A DNA stretch of 43,981 bases from assembly GCA_947471905.1 (NCBI GenBank), contig CANIZT010000004.1:1-43981 (forward strand), given 5' to 3'. The number at the start of each line of letters is the position of its first letter. The stretch's first letter is position 1. Source of the DNA: Verrucomicrobiaceae bacterium. GTDB taxonomy: Bacteria; Verrucomicrobiota; Verrucomicrobiia; Verrucomicrobiales; Verrucomicrobiaceae. Under the pieces are notes generated by a model. The model was given only the letters and a program-made list of their open reading frames with translations. It was not told the DNA's origin and made no database searches. Both the position numbers and the translations under genes were made by a program. Of this stretch, positions 24,249-36,298 are shown one piece after another.

Positions 24249-25172
24249 ATGCCTTTTTATCATGCTCCGGTGTTGCTCGCGGAGGTGATTGAGCTGCTTC
24301 AGCCCGCTCCCGGCAAGCTCATGTTTGATGGTACACTGGGTGGTGGCGGGCATTCTGAAGCACTGCTGCAATATGGTGCACGCGTCGTCGCGATGGATCA
24401 GGATGTGAATGCGCTCAAGCATGCTACGGAGCGCCTCAAACCCTACGCGGCTCAATTCTGTGCGCTGCGCGGTAATTTCCGCCACTTCCCGCAGATCGTT
24501 GAAGAAACAGGTGTGTCAGGTTTCGATGGCATGTTGGTGGACATAGGTGTCTCGAGTCATCAGCTCGATGACGCCGCACGTGGTTTCTCGTTCATGCGGG
24601 ACGGTCCGCTCGATCTGCGCATGGACACAGATTCGCCACCCACAGCGGCGGATTTGGTGAACACCGCAGATGAGGCCGAACTCATGCGCATCTTCTTTGA
24701 CTACGGCGAGGAGCCAAACGCACGCCGCATTGCACGTGCAATCATCAAAGCCCGCACCGCACATCGCATTCAAACAACCTTGCAGTTCGCGGACATCGTT
24801 GCCGCCGCATCGCCAAAGCGCGGCAAGCGTCATCCCGCTACACTCGTTTTTCAGGCGCTGCGCATCGCGGTGAATGACGAACTGGCCGCGCTGCACGATT
24901 TTCTCGCCGCAGCACCGCGTTGGTTGAAACCCGGCGGCAGGCTGGCAGTGATCTCCTTCCACTCGCTGGAGGACCGCATCGTTAAACAAACACTTCAGCA
25001 TCTCTCGGCACCGTTTATCGATCGCCCAGAATGGCCCGAGGCACGCAAAAACCCCGATTGCCTGCTTAAGCTCATCACTCGCAAGCCGGTTCAAGCATCG
25101 GCACAAGAAATTGAACGCAACCCTCGAGCTCGCAGCGCCGTGCTGCGCGTCGCCGAGCGCCTTCCTACATGA
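24249..25172 (+). CDS. rsmH: 16S rRNA (cytosine(1402)-N(4))-methyltransferase RsmH
   Basis: 307 residues from ATG 24249, which starts right at the conserved MPFYHAPVLLAEVIELL and gives the usual family length. An upstream in-frame ATG (23955) would add 98 low-complexity residues and is not favoured. Motifs: DGTLGGGGHSEALL (SAM binding), MDQDVNAL, DIGVSSHQLDDAARGFSF, FQALRIAVNDELAAL, HSLEDRIVKQ, and NPRARSAVLRVAER at the end. It is the canonical first gene of dcw clusters. Its stop overlaps the ftsL-like start (ATGA). A divergent paralogue lies at 17391. No Shine-Dalgarno sequence is seen; the start sits beside a palindrome. Confidence 0.93.
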   Translation: MPFYHAPVLLAEVIELLQPAPGKLMFDGTLGGGGHSEALLQYGARVVAMDQDVNALKHATERLKPYAAQFCALRGNFRHFPQIVEETGVSGFDGMLVDIGVSSHQLDDAARGFSFMRDGPLDLRMDTDSPPTAADLVNTADEAELMRIFFDYGEEPNARRIARAIIKARTAHRIQTTLQFADIVAAASPKRGKRHPATLVFQALRIAVNDELAALHDFLAAAPRWLKPGGRLAVISFHSLEDRIVKQTLQHLSAPFIDRPEWPEARKNPDCLLKLITRKPVQASAQEIERNPRARSAVLRVAERLPT

Positions 25173-25546
25173 AACCAAGTCAACGCAATCGCTACCGCAA
25201 CAACCTTGGACTGCCGGTGATCACGGCGATCCTGCTCGTCGTTGCATCGCTGGCTCTCGCCGGTCTAGGCATTGTCGTGAGCAAAAACCGCGTGCGCGCC
25301 CTTGGTGAAGAACAGCGCAAGGTCGAATCCGAGGCACGCCTGCTACAGGCCGAAATCGTTGCCTTGAACAACCGCATCGAAACAATGCTCACTCGTGATC
25401 GCGTGCAGCCGCGTCTGACCAGTTCTGGCACACTACTGCGCCCGATCACCAAACACAGCCTGCTCATGCTCAAACCGCTTCCGCAGGCCACCGCTTCGAT
25501 CACATCTGATCCATCCATCGCACAAACCATGCCTCAGCATCCGTGA
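25169..25546 (+). CDS. ftsL: FtsL-like cell division protein
   Basis: 125 residues: a short basic cytoplasmic tail, one transmembrane helix (about 15-37, LPVITAILLVVASLALAGLGIVV), and a coiled coil (about 38-75, RALGEEQRKVESEARLLQAEIVALNNRI), then a Pro/Thr-rich C-terminus. FtsL has little sequence conservation; the call rests on topology, size and its position between rsmH and ftsI. It would join the FtsQLB divisome complex that activates FtsWI. The ATG overlaps the rsmH stop (ATGA), and the stop overlaps the ftsI GTG (GTGA). Confidence 0.8.
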   Translation: MKPSQRNRYRNNLGLPVITAILLVVASLALAGLGIVVSKNRVRALGEEQRKVESEARLLQAEIVALNNRIETMLTRDRVQPRLTSSGTLLRPITKHSLLMLKPLPQATASITSDPSIAQTMPQHP

Positions 25547-31470: not shown

Positions 31471-32775
31471 ATGAAATACGCCTCACAACGTTTTGCCATT
31501 CTCGGTGCTGGACGCAGCGGTCTTGGTGCTGCGCGTCTGGCGCGGATGCATGGCGCGGATGTGACGATTTTTGACGAAGGTGACAAGGCGAAGCAGGTCG
31601 AGGACTTCAAATGCGTACTTGGGCAGTCCGCACGTGATCTCGTCGTCAAACCCGGTGATTTTGATCTCGTCATCATCAGCCCCGGCTTGGACGAACACTG
31701 GCCATTGCCGAAGAAATTCACGGATGCAGGTGTTCCACTCGTCGGGGAAACCGAATTTGCCTTCAACCTGACCGACATGCCGATGGCTGCCATCACTGGC
31801 ACCAACGGCAAGAGCACCTGCACCGAACTGATTGCGGCGCTGTTCAACGGCTGCGGCATGAAATCGCTGCCCTGTGGCAATCACGGCGTGTCCTTGAGCG
31901 AAGTCGTCGCCAGCGGCGTGCGCTACGATGTGCTCGCGCTCGAAATCAGCAGCTTCCAGCTCGAAACGATCAAGAACTTCCGCGCGAAAGCCAGCCTGTG
32001 GCTCAACTTCGCGCCGGATCATCTGGATCGTTATCCAAACATGGAGGCGTACTATGCCGCGAAGGCGCGCATCTTTGAAAACGTCACATCGGACGATGTT
32101 GTCATCGTGCGTGCGGGTGAAACCGTCTCAAGCGGCAAAGCGCAGCGCTGGACCTTCTCCGCCTATGGAGCCGAGGCTGGTTACACTTATAGCGCGGGCA
32201 AATTTTACCATCTCGGCCAGGAAATCGGCAGCGCAGCAGATTTGAAACTGCGTGGCAAGCACAATATGGAAAACGTGCTCGCAGCGCTGATGACAGGTCA
32301 AGTGTTCGGCTTGAAGTTCGCTGTAATGCTGAAGGCGCTCGAAATCTATGAGCCGCCACGGCATCGTTGTGAACTGGTGCGCACCTTGCATGACCGCGAG
32401 TACATCAATGACTCCAAGGCGACGAATCTGCATGCGCTGGTGGCGTGTTTGAAATCGCAGGAGCGCCCCATCGTGCTGATCGCCGGCGGCAAGGACAAGG
32501 AGCTCGATTACACGCCGCTGCGTGCCGAATTGAACGGCCAGGTGCGTGCGATGGTGTTCATCGGCGAGATTGCCGGCCAGCTTGAGCAGACTTTTGGCGA
32601 TCTGCTGCCCTGCCAGCGCGCCACCGACATGGCGGATGCCGTGCGTTTAGCCACCGCTGCCTCGCAGGTAGGTGATGCCATCATTCTAAGTCCCGGCACC
32701 TCATCCTTCGACATGTACACCGGCTACGCCCAGCGTGGTGACGTGTTTCGAGCCGCCGTGGAGGTCTTAAAATGA
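31471..32775 (+). CDS. murD: UDP-N-acetylmuramoyl-L-alanine--D-glutamate ligase MurD
   Basis: 434 residues. The N-terminal Rossmann segment is FAILGAGRSGLGAARLA, the ATP loop ITGTNGKSTCTELI, the central motif ALEISSFQLETIKNF, and the C-terminal motifs YINDSKATNLHAL and LIAGGKDKELDYTPL. It adds D-Glu to UDP-MurNAc-L-Ala, the step before MurE. It lies 3 bases after mraY. The stop overlaps the start of the LysM gene by four bases, so the two are probably translationally linked. Its last codons carry the LysM gene's ribosome binding site. Confidence 0.95.
   Translation: MKYASQRFAILGAGRSGLGAARLARMHGADVTIFDEGDKAKQVEDFKCVLGQSARDLVVKPGDFDLVIISPGLDEHWPLPKKFTDAGVPLVGETEFAFNLTDMPMAAITGTNGKSTCTELIAALFNGCGMKSLPCGNHGVSLSEVVASGVRYDVLALEISSFQLETIKNFRAKASLWLNFAPDHLDRYPNMEAYYAAKARIFENVTSDDVVIVRAGETVSSGKAQRWTFSAYGAEAGYTYSAGKFYHLGQEIGSAADLKLRGKHNMENVLAALMTGQVFGLKFAVMLKALEIYEPPRHRCELVRTLHDREYINDSKATNLHALVACLKSQERPIVLIAGGKDKELDYTPLRAELNGQVRAMVFIGEIAGQLEQTFGDLLPCQRATDMADAVRLATAASQVGDAIILSPGTSSFDMYTGYAQRGDVFRAAVEVLK
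32760..32765 (+). promoter_or_regulatory. Shine-Dalgarno for the LysM gene
   Basis: GGAGGT, six bases before the ATG at 32772, inside the murD 3' end. It settles the long start of the LysM protein over the internal ATG at 32820. Confidence 0.65.
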
Positions 32776-34004
32776 ATTTTAAATCCCCAAAGTCCGACAA
32801 TCCTACGCTCCGAGTTCTTATGAAGACGAAACCACAGCCCAAAGAAAAGAAACTGCTGCTGAACCTCATGTCAGGCGAGCGCCAGCGTCATCGCGTTGCG
32901 CTCGTCACGGAAGAAGGTGAATGGAACCAGCATGAGCCGAACTCCGGCATGGCGCGCATGTTTGTCGTCATGCTGCTCATTCATGTCGTGCTCATCAGCG
33001 GCATCATCTTTTATGATTACATGGGCGACGACGAGACGCCGCAGCAGACCGTGACGCAGGCCGCGCGTGCGATGAGCAGTGCCTCGGGCCTACCACAGGC
33101 AGCACCCGAAATCGTCAACGCTCAGGCGCAAGCGGCAGCGGACACGCAGCAGTTTGACAACTATGAGATGCGCTCCGGTGATTCCATCAAGAGCATCGCG
33201 GCCAAGTTCGGCGCGACTGAGGCGGAAATCTCCAAGATGAACATGATCGACAAAGGACTTCAGATCGGTCCAGGCACGATGCTACGTGTGCCGAAGCAAC
33301 CGGTGCCGAACGCCATTCCGGTTGACCCGAAGACCTTGAAACCAATGGTGGTCAGCGACGACGTGCCCAAGGCGCTGCCAGTGAATCATCAGCCACCGAT
33401 AACGAAGGTGCCGAGCGAGGCAGTGAAGCCCGCCGATGCACCGGCCAGCTTGTCTGCTGCGGCCATGACACCGATGTCTCTGATGGCACCGCATGAGGAA
33501 CCACCCTCGACTTCATCACTCGCCGCCGCCGCCGACACGCCTGCCACAACCTCCCCGCTTGTGGCGAATGTGGCCGCGTTGCCACCACCTGCCAATCCAC
33601 GCGCCGTTTCATTATTGCAGGAAAATGCGCCGGTTGCCAGCAATTCGACTAAGACCGTGGTCTCAAAGCCCAAAGATGAACCAAAGAAGGTTGCCAGAGC
33701 CGAGCCCAAAGCATTGGTCAAACCCAGCCCAGTGCCACCGCCTTCGCAGATGCTGAAAAAGATTGCTGACGCGCCTCCCGCCACGAAAAAAACCGAGTCA
33801 GCGAAAAAGGTCACGGCTGATGCGCCGCCGAAAAGCGTCGCCAAAGCTGCTCCGGTCCGTTCACACACCCTCAAGTCCGGCGAGACACTCTACCGCCTAG
33901 CAACGAAGTTTGGTGTCAGTGTGGAGGCCATCCAGAAGGCGAACAACATCAAGAACCCCAACTCCATGCGTGATGGCATGAAGCTAGTCATTCCGGCCAA
34001 GTAA
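32772..34004 (+). CDS. Bitopic LysM protein within the dcw cluster
   Basis: 410 residues. A cytoplasmic basic segment of about 60 residues precedes one transmembrane helix (about 62-81, RMFVVMLLIHVVLISGIIFY). A first LysM domain follows at about 130-176 (MRSGDSIKSIAAKFGATEAEI...RVPK). A long Pro/Ala/Lys/Ser-rich linker leads to a second LysM at about 363-410 (HTLKSGETLYRLATKFGVSVEAI...LVIPAK). No hydrolase domain is present, so it probably binds peptidoglycan and may recruit or regulate others, as SPOR- or LysM-type divisome factors do. It sits between murD and ftsW, overlapping the murD stop (ATGA) and 18 bases from ftsW. No standard dcw gene matches; function is inferred. Confidence 0.82.
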   Translation: MNFKSPKSDNPTLRVLMKTKPQPKEKKLLLNLMSGERQRHRVALVTEEGEWNQHEPNSGMARMFVVMLLIHVVLISGIIFYDYMGDDETPQQTVTQAARAMSSASGLPQAAPEIVNAQAQAAADTQQFDNYEMRSGDSIKSIAAKFGATEAEISKMNMIDKGLQIGPGTMLRVPKQPVPNAIPVDPKTLKPMVVSDDVPKALPVNHQPPITKVPSEAVKPADAPASLSAAAMTPMSLMAPHEEPPSTSSLAAAADTPATTSPLVANVAALPPPANPRAVSLLQENAPVASNSTKTVVSKPKDEPKKVARAEPKALVKPSPVPPPSQMLKKIADAPPATKKTESAKKVTADAPPKSVAKAAPVRSHTLKSGETLYRLATKFGVSVEAIQKANNIKNPNSMRDGMKLVIPAK

Positions 34005-34022: not shown

Positions 34023-35168
34023 ATGGCCAAACACTCAATCATCCTTCTCATCCTAGCGGTGCTGTCGTTGATCGCCTTGGGCATCACGATGCTCGCGAGC
34101 ACGACGTTTGAGATCGCGCAGGAGGGGACGCAGGATTACGTGACGTTGTGGCGGCAGTTGGTCTGGCTGGGTGTTTCGGTCGTCGCATGCGTGATTGCAG
34201 CGCTGTTGGATTACAATGTCTGGCTGCGCTGGCGCTGGCGTATTCTAGTCACTGCAGCGGTGCTGCTGGCGCTTTGCTACGTACCGATGATCGGCGTGAA
34301 GATCAATGGCTCGAAGCGCTGGATCGGTGTGTCGTCCTTGCGGTTGCAGCCGTCGGAGTTTGCGAAGATCGCGTTGATCATCGCGCTGGCAGGCTGGTAT
34401 GCGACGCATGAAGCGATGACCCGCACGTTTTTGCGCGGTTTCTTGCTACCTGGACTTCTATTGGCGGCGATCGTGGCGTTGATCGGCTGCGAGTTTGACC
34501 TTGGCAGCGCCCTGCTGGCCTCGGCCGTCGGTCTAGGCGTCATGTTTGTGGCTGGCACCAAGATGCGCTATCTCGCCATCATCGTGGTGCTCTGCGGGGG
34601 CGGCTTGTGGGCGGGAATTAAATACCTGCCGAATCGTCTCGAGCGTGTGATGGTGGTGTTCGACCTCGAAAAGCACAAAGAAGACCTCGGTTTGCAGCAA
34701 TGGGTGTCCAAACTGGCCTTTGGGTCCGGCGGCATCGAGGGGCGTGGTCTTGGCGAAGGCCGGATGAAGCTGTCCTATCTGCCCGAAGCGCACACGGATT
34801 TCATTTTCCCGATGGTGGGCGAGGAACTGGGCCTGCGCGGCACGGCGGCTGTGGTTTTTGCTTTTGCGGTGCTGGTGATGGCCGGGATGGTCGTTTCGTC
34901 CTATGCGCCGAACCGGTTTGGCAAGCTTTTGGGGGCTGGATTGACATTTTTAATCGGAATGGAAGCGCTCTTGAACATGGCCGTGACCACTGCTTTGCTG
35001 CCGAATAAGGGATTGCCGCTGCCTTTCGTAAGTTACGGAGGGTCCAGTCTTGTCGCTGCGATGGTCGCAGTGGGCATCCTGATCAATATCCATCGCCAGG
35101 GCGTGCATCTGACGTGGGATCAACTACCCGTGATCCGCAGTAAGCGCCGCTGGACTCCACAGCTTTAG
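34023..35168 (+). CDS. ftsW: Lipid II polymerase FtsW (SEDS family)
   Basis: 381 residues with about ten membrane helices. SEDS motifs: VKINGSKRWIGVSSLRLQPSEFAKIALI, the large periplasmic loop before SYLPEAHTDFIFPMVGEELGLRGT, and LPLPFVSYGGSSLVAAMVAVG at the end. It polymerises lipid II into glycan at the septum with FtsI, which is in the same operon. FtsW rather than RodA is favoured by its dcw position. It is followed 14 bases later by murG. Confidence 0.93.
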   Translation: MAKHSIILLILAVLSLIALGITMLASTTFEIAQEGTQDYVTLWRQLVWLGVSVVACVIAALLDYNVWLRWRWRILVTAAVLLALCYVPMIGVKINGSKRWIGVSSLRLQPSEFAKIALIIALAGWYATHEAMTRTFLRGFLLPGLLLAAIVALIGCEFDLGSALLASAVGLGVMFVAGTKMRYLAIIVVLCGGGLWAGIKYLPNRLERVMVVFDLEKHKEDLGLQQWVSKLAFGSGGIEGRGLGEGRMKLSYLPEAHTDFIFPMVGEELGLRGTAAVVFAFAVLVMAGMVVSSYAPNRFGKLLGAGLTFLIGMEALLNMAVTTALLPNKGLPLPFVSYGGSSLVAAMVAVGILINIHRQGVHLTWDQLPVIRSKRRWTPQL

Positions 35169-35182
35169 CCTTTTGAATCTCA

Positions 35183-36298
35183 GTGAAACAGAAAAATTCG
35201 AAGTCCATCCATGTGCTTATCGCATGCGGTGGCACCGGGGGGCATTTGTTCCCCGGCATTGCCGTCGGTGAGGTTTTGGCCTCACGCGGTCACGATGTGA
35301 CCCTCCTGATCAGTGAAAAGAAGATCGACACCCTGGCCGCTTCCGGACACCCGGAACTGCGGTTTGAGAAAATGCCGTTCCTCGCCATGCCGAAACCGTG
35401 GTCGCCGAAGATGATCGGCTTCCTCAAAGGGCTCTGGCAGGGCACGAAGGCCTGCCGCAAGCTCATCCGCGACCGTGAGGTCGATGTCGTGCTCGGCATG
35501 GGCGGGTTCACCTCCTTCGCACCGTTGTATGCCGGACGCAAAGAAGGCTGCACCACGCTCATTCACGAAAGCAACGCCATCCCTGGCAAAGCCAACAAAC
35601 TCAACGCTCGCTACAGCGACATTGTTTTGTGTGGTCTCGATGCGTGCAAAGCGCACTTTCCGAAGCATAACGATGTTCGTGTCGTCGGCACGCCGATCCG
35701 CAGCAGCATGCGCAAACAGAACACCGACGATCCACGCGCCTTTTTCAAGCTCGACAAGGACAAGCGCACGCTCTTGATCATGGGCGGCAGCCAGGGCGCA
35801 CGCGGCGTGAATCGCGCGGTGGGCCAGGCGCTTGATCAGTTTGAAGCCATGGGCATCCAAGTGCTGCACATTGCCGGTCCGACCGATTACGAGGAGGTGC
35901 GCGACGTGTATGCGAAGATTCCGCTGCTCAAGCAACACGTCGCCGCGTTCTGCCACCGCATGGACCTAGCTTACCGTGCTGCTGACCTCGCCATTGCACG
36001 TTCAGGAGCCTCGTCGATGGCAGAACTGGCCTACTTTGGCGTGCCGAGCCTGCTCGTGCCGTATCCCTTCGCTGCCGAGGATCACCAGACCCGCAACGCA
36101 GAGATTTTTGACAAGGCCGGTGCCGCACGCCTGATGCGGGAGAAGGATCTGAACGCCGACACGCTTGCCGATGCCGTGCGCAGCATCTTCAACGACCCGC
36201 GCAAGGCAGGCGAGATGAAAAAGGCCGCCCAAAAGCTCACGGTGAAAAATTCGGCGGAAAAGATCGCCGATCTGCTGGTTAAAGAGGCGGGGAAATAG
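35183..36298 (+). CDS. murG: UDP-N-acetylglucosamine--lipid I GlcNAc transferase MurG
   Basis: 371 residues from GTG 35183. GT-B fold with the N-terminal glycine loop IACGGTGGHLFPGIAVGEVL, HESNAIPGKANKL, the second-domain loop IMGGSQGARGVNRAV, and the UDP-GlcNAc site ARSGASSMAELAYFGVPSLLVPYPFAAEDHQTRNA. It makes lipid II from lipid I on the inner membrane face. It is the last recognisable dcw gene; the next gene is unrelated to cell wall synthesis. Confidence 0.95.
   Translation: MKQKNSKSIHVLIACGGTGGHLFPGIAVGEVLASRGHDVTLLISEKKIDTLAASGHPELRFEKMPFLAMPKPWSPKMIGFLKGLWQGTKACRKLIRDREVDVVLGMGGFTSFAPLYAGRKEGCTTLIHESNAIPGKANKLNARYSDIVLCGLDACKAHFPKHNDVRVVGTPIRSSMRKQNTDDPRAFFKLDKDKRTLLIMGGSQGARGVNRAVGQALDQFEAMGIQVLHIAGPTDYEEVRDVYAKIPLLKQHVAAFCHRMDLAYRAADLAIARSGASSMAELAYFGVPSLLVPYPFAAEDHQTRNAEIFDKAGAARLMREKDLNADTLADAVRSIFNDPRKAGEMKKAAQKLTVKNSAEKIADLLVKEAGK

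Follow-up and report, generated by a model that had tools for sequence, protein, structure and literature searches.

It is still not understood how PVC bacteria divide, or how the Chlamydiota manage division when FtsZ is lacking, and the dcw cluster of one Verrucomicrobiaceae bacterium bears on this question: what does a membrane-anchored LysM protein do between murD and ftsW? The window analyzed here is a 43,981-nucleotide stretch of contig CANIZT010000004.1 (assembly GCA_947471905.1). All on the forward strand, the cluster runs mraW, a short bitopic frame, ftsI, murE, murF, mraY, murD, the LysM frame, ftsW and murG. The LysM frame (32772-34004, 410 aa) sits between murD (31471-32775; Pfam Mur_ligase_M/C) and ftsW (34023-35168; Pfam FTSW_RODA_SPOVE, 4.6e-85), and ftsW is followed by murG (35183-36298). 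The short bitopic frame between mraW and ftsI (25169-25546, 125 aa) has no Pfam match and occupies the place of ftsL. The first-pass annotation of this DNA described a two-LysM membrane protein at the murD-ftsW junction with nothing catalytic about it. The open frame, its Pfam domains and an AlphaFold helix bear out that description.

The same annotation placed the start at an ATGA overlap with murD, behind a good Shine-Dalgarno sequence. Both GGAGG and ATGA are indeed present in the window, but the GGAGG is part of murD codons and, among the relatives, just the nearest one (L008) has the same arrangement. More than 10 of the 24 congeners compared, including L012 and L014-L021, have in-frame stops between the aligned overlap point and Met17 of the window frame, and the congener alignment turns strong at that methionine, with MK(T/M)KPKPKE(T/K)KLLLNLMDGERHRHRVALVTEEGEWNQHEPNSGMARMFVVMLLIHVV. 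Because of these upstream stops, the conserved start likely lies at 32820, which would give a protein of 394 aa (32820-34004) after a gap of about 44 nt from murD. No clear Shine-Dalgarno sequence was seen ahead of 32820. The 16 codons before it (32772-32819) probably fall outside the conserved gene, although translation in the window and in L008 may yet begin at the upstream ATG, which would add 16 residues. The stops in relatives mean that translational coupling to murD is not a common property, ruling out the ATGA overlap as a conserved device. The suggestion that it would fix the ratio of the two products finds no support either, since the conserved start lies 48 nt downstream.

In the numbering of the 410-aa frame, Pfam (PF01476) identifies LysM 1 at residues 131-174 (33162-33293) and a C-terminal LysM 2 at residues 365-408 (33864-33995), with a whole-protein E-value of 1.8e-20, and detects no catalytic domain. 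A single hydrophobic helix (MFVVMLLIHVVLISGIIFY, 32958-33014), recognized from the comparison of relatives and from AlphaFold, lies ahead of LysM 1 at about residues 62-82 and contains a conserved histidine (codon 32982-32984). Arg precedes the helix and Asp-rich sequence comes after it, so we expect an N-in orientation. The predicted cytoplasmic tail (32820-32957), with the motif RHRVALVTEEGEWNQHEPNSGMAR, is well conserved in the genus and can also be made out in several further genera of the family. Between the two LysM domains lies a linker of about 190 residues (33294-33863), rich in Pro and Ala and predicted to be disordered. The AlphaFold model was made from a single sequence and reaches confident values just in part of the helix (59-83) and in LysM 2 (pLDDT ~87), with a pTM of 0.22 and linker values mostly below 50. 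In a fold search, the best structural neighbors in the PDB were mostly LysM chains, at E-values no better than 3.6e-3.

The gene is under purifying selection, with a pN of 0.026 and a pS of 0.23 against the 94% identical relative L008. When more distant congeners are compared, the linker evolves fastest, and either the tail and helix or LysM 2 evolves slowest as a rule. Across 50 family members, the mean majority-residue fraction is highest in the helix (0.75) and the inner half of the tail (0.67), followed by LysM 2 (0.64), LysM 1 (0.56) and, far below, the linker (0.29). A domain-family search of 75 members returned no catalytic or LytM/Peptidase_M23 domain. We also considered a catalytic domain hidden in the linker, and rejected it given the lack of any family match in these 75 members and the low-confidence, disordered appearance of the segment.

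LysM domains in general bind peptidoglycan without septal preference. The protein might therefore be a general tether that binds the wall all over the cell and clamps it to the inner membrane or helps elongation, its place in the dcw cluster being kept only for co-expression with precursor synthesis. We consider this unlikely. A mere anchor would not need so conserved a tail and helix, and the polar residue within the helix likewise exceeds the demands of a tether.

The distribution of the gene bears on the same issue. Using FtsW as an anchor in 195 genomes, we took 80 loci and called their junctions with a LysM model that was built in this analysis and iterated. ftsW is immediately preceded on its own strand by a LysM frame in 67 of the 80 loci, corresponding to 33 of the 41 families sampled from the window's phylum, Verrucomicrobiota. 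At one locus the contig ends before the site, and some other contigs end near it. Absence of the gene from this site in all relatives would, by the first-pass annotation, have told against its reading; the comparison instead places it there in most of the families. Its description as "lineage-specific" proved too narrow, as the gene spans almost the whole phylum as well as the Chlamydiota, and a similar gene occurs in many Planctomycetota. Nor is the position a matter of chance: just five LysM-bearing frames occur in the window's own genome, and still the gene turns up next to ftsW or murD across the phylum. Even where murD has left the cluster (L093, L094, L104 and L142), the LysM gene stays between mraY and ftsW, which again argues against a general tether.

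Ten loci have no LysM gene at ftsW despite a sufficiently long contig, and in these ftsW lies outside the murD cluster. Five of the genomes, from five families (G180, G228, G149, G107 and G192), carry the LysM gene directly after murD in another part of a split cluster; these lineages had initially been scored as lacking it. That the gene has kept company with murD and not ftsW in these families is a point in favor of the tether. The other five genomes (families f14 and f19) have a similar multi-LysM gene unlinked to either murD or ftsW. Two 0.9-Mb genomes (G103 and G124, family f7) retain a decayed remnant between intact murD and ftsW (L101:5192-5990 and L102:3675-4180), in which the helix part survives in one frame, joined in G103 (L101) by a LysM end just before ftsW. 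Since the gene has decayed there while ftsW is intact, it is dispensable at least in these organisms. Thus, the LysM gene is near-universal in our sample but can be lost. Its family plan is an N-terminal hydrophobic anchor with two or more LysM domains, only one of which was scored in 7 of 68 phylum members. As a separate observation, the murD match in the complete genome of an order-mate (G088) consists of two overlapping pieces (L087:3897-5170), a possible frameshift or split gene.

Members of the family differ in their anchors. A histidine lies inside the hydrophobic segment in 60 of the 68 phylum members, including all 28 that have no following cysteine, the bitopic type to which the window protein belongs. 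The motif [GAS]C, often as PGC or QGC, occurs shortly after the segment in 40 of the 68, and all eight members without the histidine are lipobox-like. Judging from this motif, the protein may be a lipoprotein in the many families where (P/Q)GC follows the helix, and the case for a contact between helix and FtsW would be weaker there; the abundance of lipoprotein-like anchors among relatives also suits a general tether. In L090-L092, L106, L107, L117-L131 and others, PGC or QGC comes after a segment containing the conserved histidine and might be a lipobox of a non-classical kind. If it is one, the histidine would be kept inside a cleaved signal peptide. The likely history is that of a family whose anchors could be exchanged, with a cytoplasmic tail acquired in the window's order.

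We reached the Chlamydiota through records matching a Chlamydiales 16S signature. All 24 junctions readable in full (G301, G302 and G288 are outside this count) have a two-LysM gene with an N-terminal helix between murD and ftsW, and murG comes next in nearly all. The encoded proteins are 203-251 aa long, and the genomes include Chlamydia-sized ones of 1.0-1.2 Mb. An asparagine occupies the helix in 25 of 25 proteins of the Chlamydiota-type set, and a search of three Chlamydiota genomes for an M23 domain found none. We compared LysM models by nearest neighbor and model fit, the domain being too short for firm orthology by tree: the first chlamydial LysM fits the middle model best and the last fits the last model in 17 of 25, with the reverse comparison ambiguous. 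One metagenome-assembled genome labeled Verrucomicrobiota (G271) has a junction protein of chlamydial type (L286:5779-6489, 237-aa frame, Asn in the helix), so its label may be wrong or its lineage intermediate.

Going by gene order, we take the chlamydial gene at this place to be CT759/Cpn0902, annotated as NlpD or "muramidase", and its position and domains lend good support to equating it with the published chlamydial NlpD. CT_759 is called a "muramidase" in PMC6956083. A 2026 paper describes Cpn0902 as misannotated as NlpD and states that chlamydiae keep no LytM-type NlpD or EnvC (PMC13104611), and NlpD is among the proteins that a 2016 review records for Chlamydiae and Verrucomicrobia (PMC5147048). 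The NlpD of Waddlia, the one chlamydial protein for which both properties are reported, is said to sit at the septum in a manner dependent on wall synthesis (PMC5147048, PMC6956297) and to bind E. coli sacculi (PMC6635528). A cell-wide tether fits poorly with this septal localization. The earlier view of a membrane-tethered, non-catalytic, predicted peptidoglycan-binding protein tied to the division and wall cluster is thereby supported, in that the same-place chlamydial gene matches a septal, peptidoglycan-binding NlpD. The family is thus partly known already, and the bitopic, tailed, long-linker form in the window is a variant of it.

The chlamydial literature also introduces another explanation. 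PMC5147048, PMC6956297 and PMC13104611 cite reports of endopeptidase and of carboxypeptidase activity of chlamydial NlpD in vitro. The window protein might then regulate or activate septal hydrolases such as amidases or lytic enzymes, in the manner of NlpD without its LytM domain, or itself be a hydrolase as reported for the chlamydial protein. An amidase_3 gene is present in 14 of 16 genomes tested and is absent (G124) or marginal (G103) in the two where the LysM gene has decayed, although a coincidence seen in two small genomes counts for little. M23 and amidases are encoded by separate genes in the window genome, and the lack of catalytic and LytM domains in the 75 members tells against either form of the idea, which we find rather improbable.

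Outside these two phyla, about 13 of 25 planctomycete loci have a helix-plus-LysM gene beside ftsW and murG, mostly between the two. Proteins with a helix and one or two C-terminal LysM domains are encoded between ftsW and murG in L368 (1428-2318), L430 (4672-5430), L432, L439, L440, L446 and L448; in L437, L441 and L445, a gene for a helix and one or two C-terminal LysM domains comes after murG. The two-LysM bitopic proteins of L368, L430, L432 and L440 resemble the window protein in their helix, their two C-terminal LysM domains and their place beside ftsW and murG, but they lie on the other side of ftsW and their LysM domains are of a longer type. The planctomycete gene could be a counterpart of the murD-ftsW gene or an independent insertion. 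No LysM gene was found in 11 dcw clusters from other phyla (two Poribacteria, Acidimicrobiia, Halomonas, Oscillospiraceae, Hydrogenedentota, Pollutimonas, Streptoalloteichus, Ignavibacteriae, Muribaculaceae and one unnamed).

To which neighbor, then, is the protein most closely tied? Its pairwise sequence distances track those of FtsW better than those of MurD, MurG or MraY whether computed over the whole set, the window's phylum or the Chlamydiota (Spearman 0.76, 0.55 and 0.73, respectively), a correlation to which vertical descent contributes and which is no proof of contact. This preference for FtsW is a further point against the general tether. FtsN, DamX and DedD recognize the septal wall through SPOR. 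Our search found no SPOR domain in 96 genomes of the window's phylum or in 50 Chlamydiota genomes, and was positive in six control genomes (E. coli, B. subtilis and four others). In addition, there is a precedent for a LysM protein acting at FtsW: B. subtilis YneA consists of one helix, which binds transmembrane segment 7 of FtsW, and a LysM domain that binds peptidoglycan (PMC13396833).

Based on the absence of SPOR, the FtsN-like plan of the protein, the distances that agree best with FtsW and the YneA precedent, we favor an FtsW-associated reader of the septal wall. Specifically, we put at roughly 55% the probability that the window encodes an FtsW-associated, septal wall-binding division protein, belonging to an ancient family, encoded in the dcw cluster of Verrucomicrobiota and Chlamydiota, whose members are anchored, non-catalytic and equipped with several LysM domains. 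Within the inner membrane, its helix with the conserved polar residue would bind the septal synthase, FtsW being the likeliest target, and the long disordered linker would give the LysM domains access to freshly synthesized septal glycan. Cytoplasmic division proteins may recruit the conserved tail or receive signals from it. In this way the window protein would couple FtsWI to the wall just made, which is the job of SPOR-domain FtsN in Proteobacteria. The protein's anatomy, its place and distribution, the lack of SPOR and the selection on tail, helix and LysM are observed; septal localization in the window's own lineage, contact with FtsW and the direction of the effect are what we infer here. 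A bolder version makes the protein the FtsN-equivalent of the window's phylum and of the Chlamydiota, in neither of which SPOR was detected: docked on FtsW by its polar-residue helix, it would read new septal glycan and license septal synthesis, having been in the division cluster of the common ancestor and kept when the Chlamydiota lost FtsZ. We offer this version tentatively, and with more doubt than belief.

The LysM protein is probably an overlooked standard part of the division machinery of these bacteria. In their main texts, neither an essential-genome study of V. spinosum (PMC12283558) nor an earlier dcw survey (PMC1845146) mentions LysM or NlpD; what looks like a near-universal component of the cluster thus seems to have escaped notice in both. 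The tie by position and domains gives the chlamydial "NlpD", which is considered misnamed, a likely origin and a free-living model that permits deletion, and it suggests that LysM takes the place of SPOR as septal wall reader. Targeted mutagenesis exists for V. spinosum (PMC12283558), which makes the idea directly testable.

Among known systems, E. coli FtsN shares the layout of a short cytoplasmic tail, one helix, a disordered linker and a C-terminal wall-binding domain. It differs in that SPOR rather than LysM binds the wall, its sequence is unrelated and its gene does not lie between murD and ftsW; with LysM in place of the C-terminal SPOR, the window protein is not a member of the FtsN family. 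E. coli NlpD is likewise anchored, LysM-bearing and division-related, and the lipobox-like anchors of some relatives add to the likeness. NlpD, however, activates AmiC through its own degenerate LytM (M23) domain, which the window protein does not have, and the absence of M23 from 75 members excludes the family from the LytM-type amidase activators NlpD and EnvC.

YneA shares the single helix, the C-terminal LysM and, if our reading is right, action at FtsW (PMC13396833). These likenesses raise the possibility of a brake that binds FtsW and slows septal synthesis constitutively rather than in the SOS response. We regard it as very unlikely: YneA is a short, SOS-induced inhibitor from the Firmicutes with one LysM, encoded outside the dcw cluster, whereas the window protein has a fixed place inside the cluster, several LysM domains in its family and a long linker. 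It scores 27.1 bits against the YneA model (NCBIfam NF010723), through its LysM part only and below the curated cut-off of 60 bits.

The chlamydial "NlpD" proteins (CT759, Cpn0902 and Waddlia NlpD), matched to the junction gene by position and domains, have the same place between murD and ftsW, an N-terminal helix, two LysM domains and no LytM. The window protein differs from them in its length (394 versus about 205-255 aa), its conserved cytoplasmic tail of about 46 aa, the histidine in place of asparagine in the helix and the long linker between its LysM domains.
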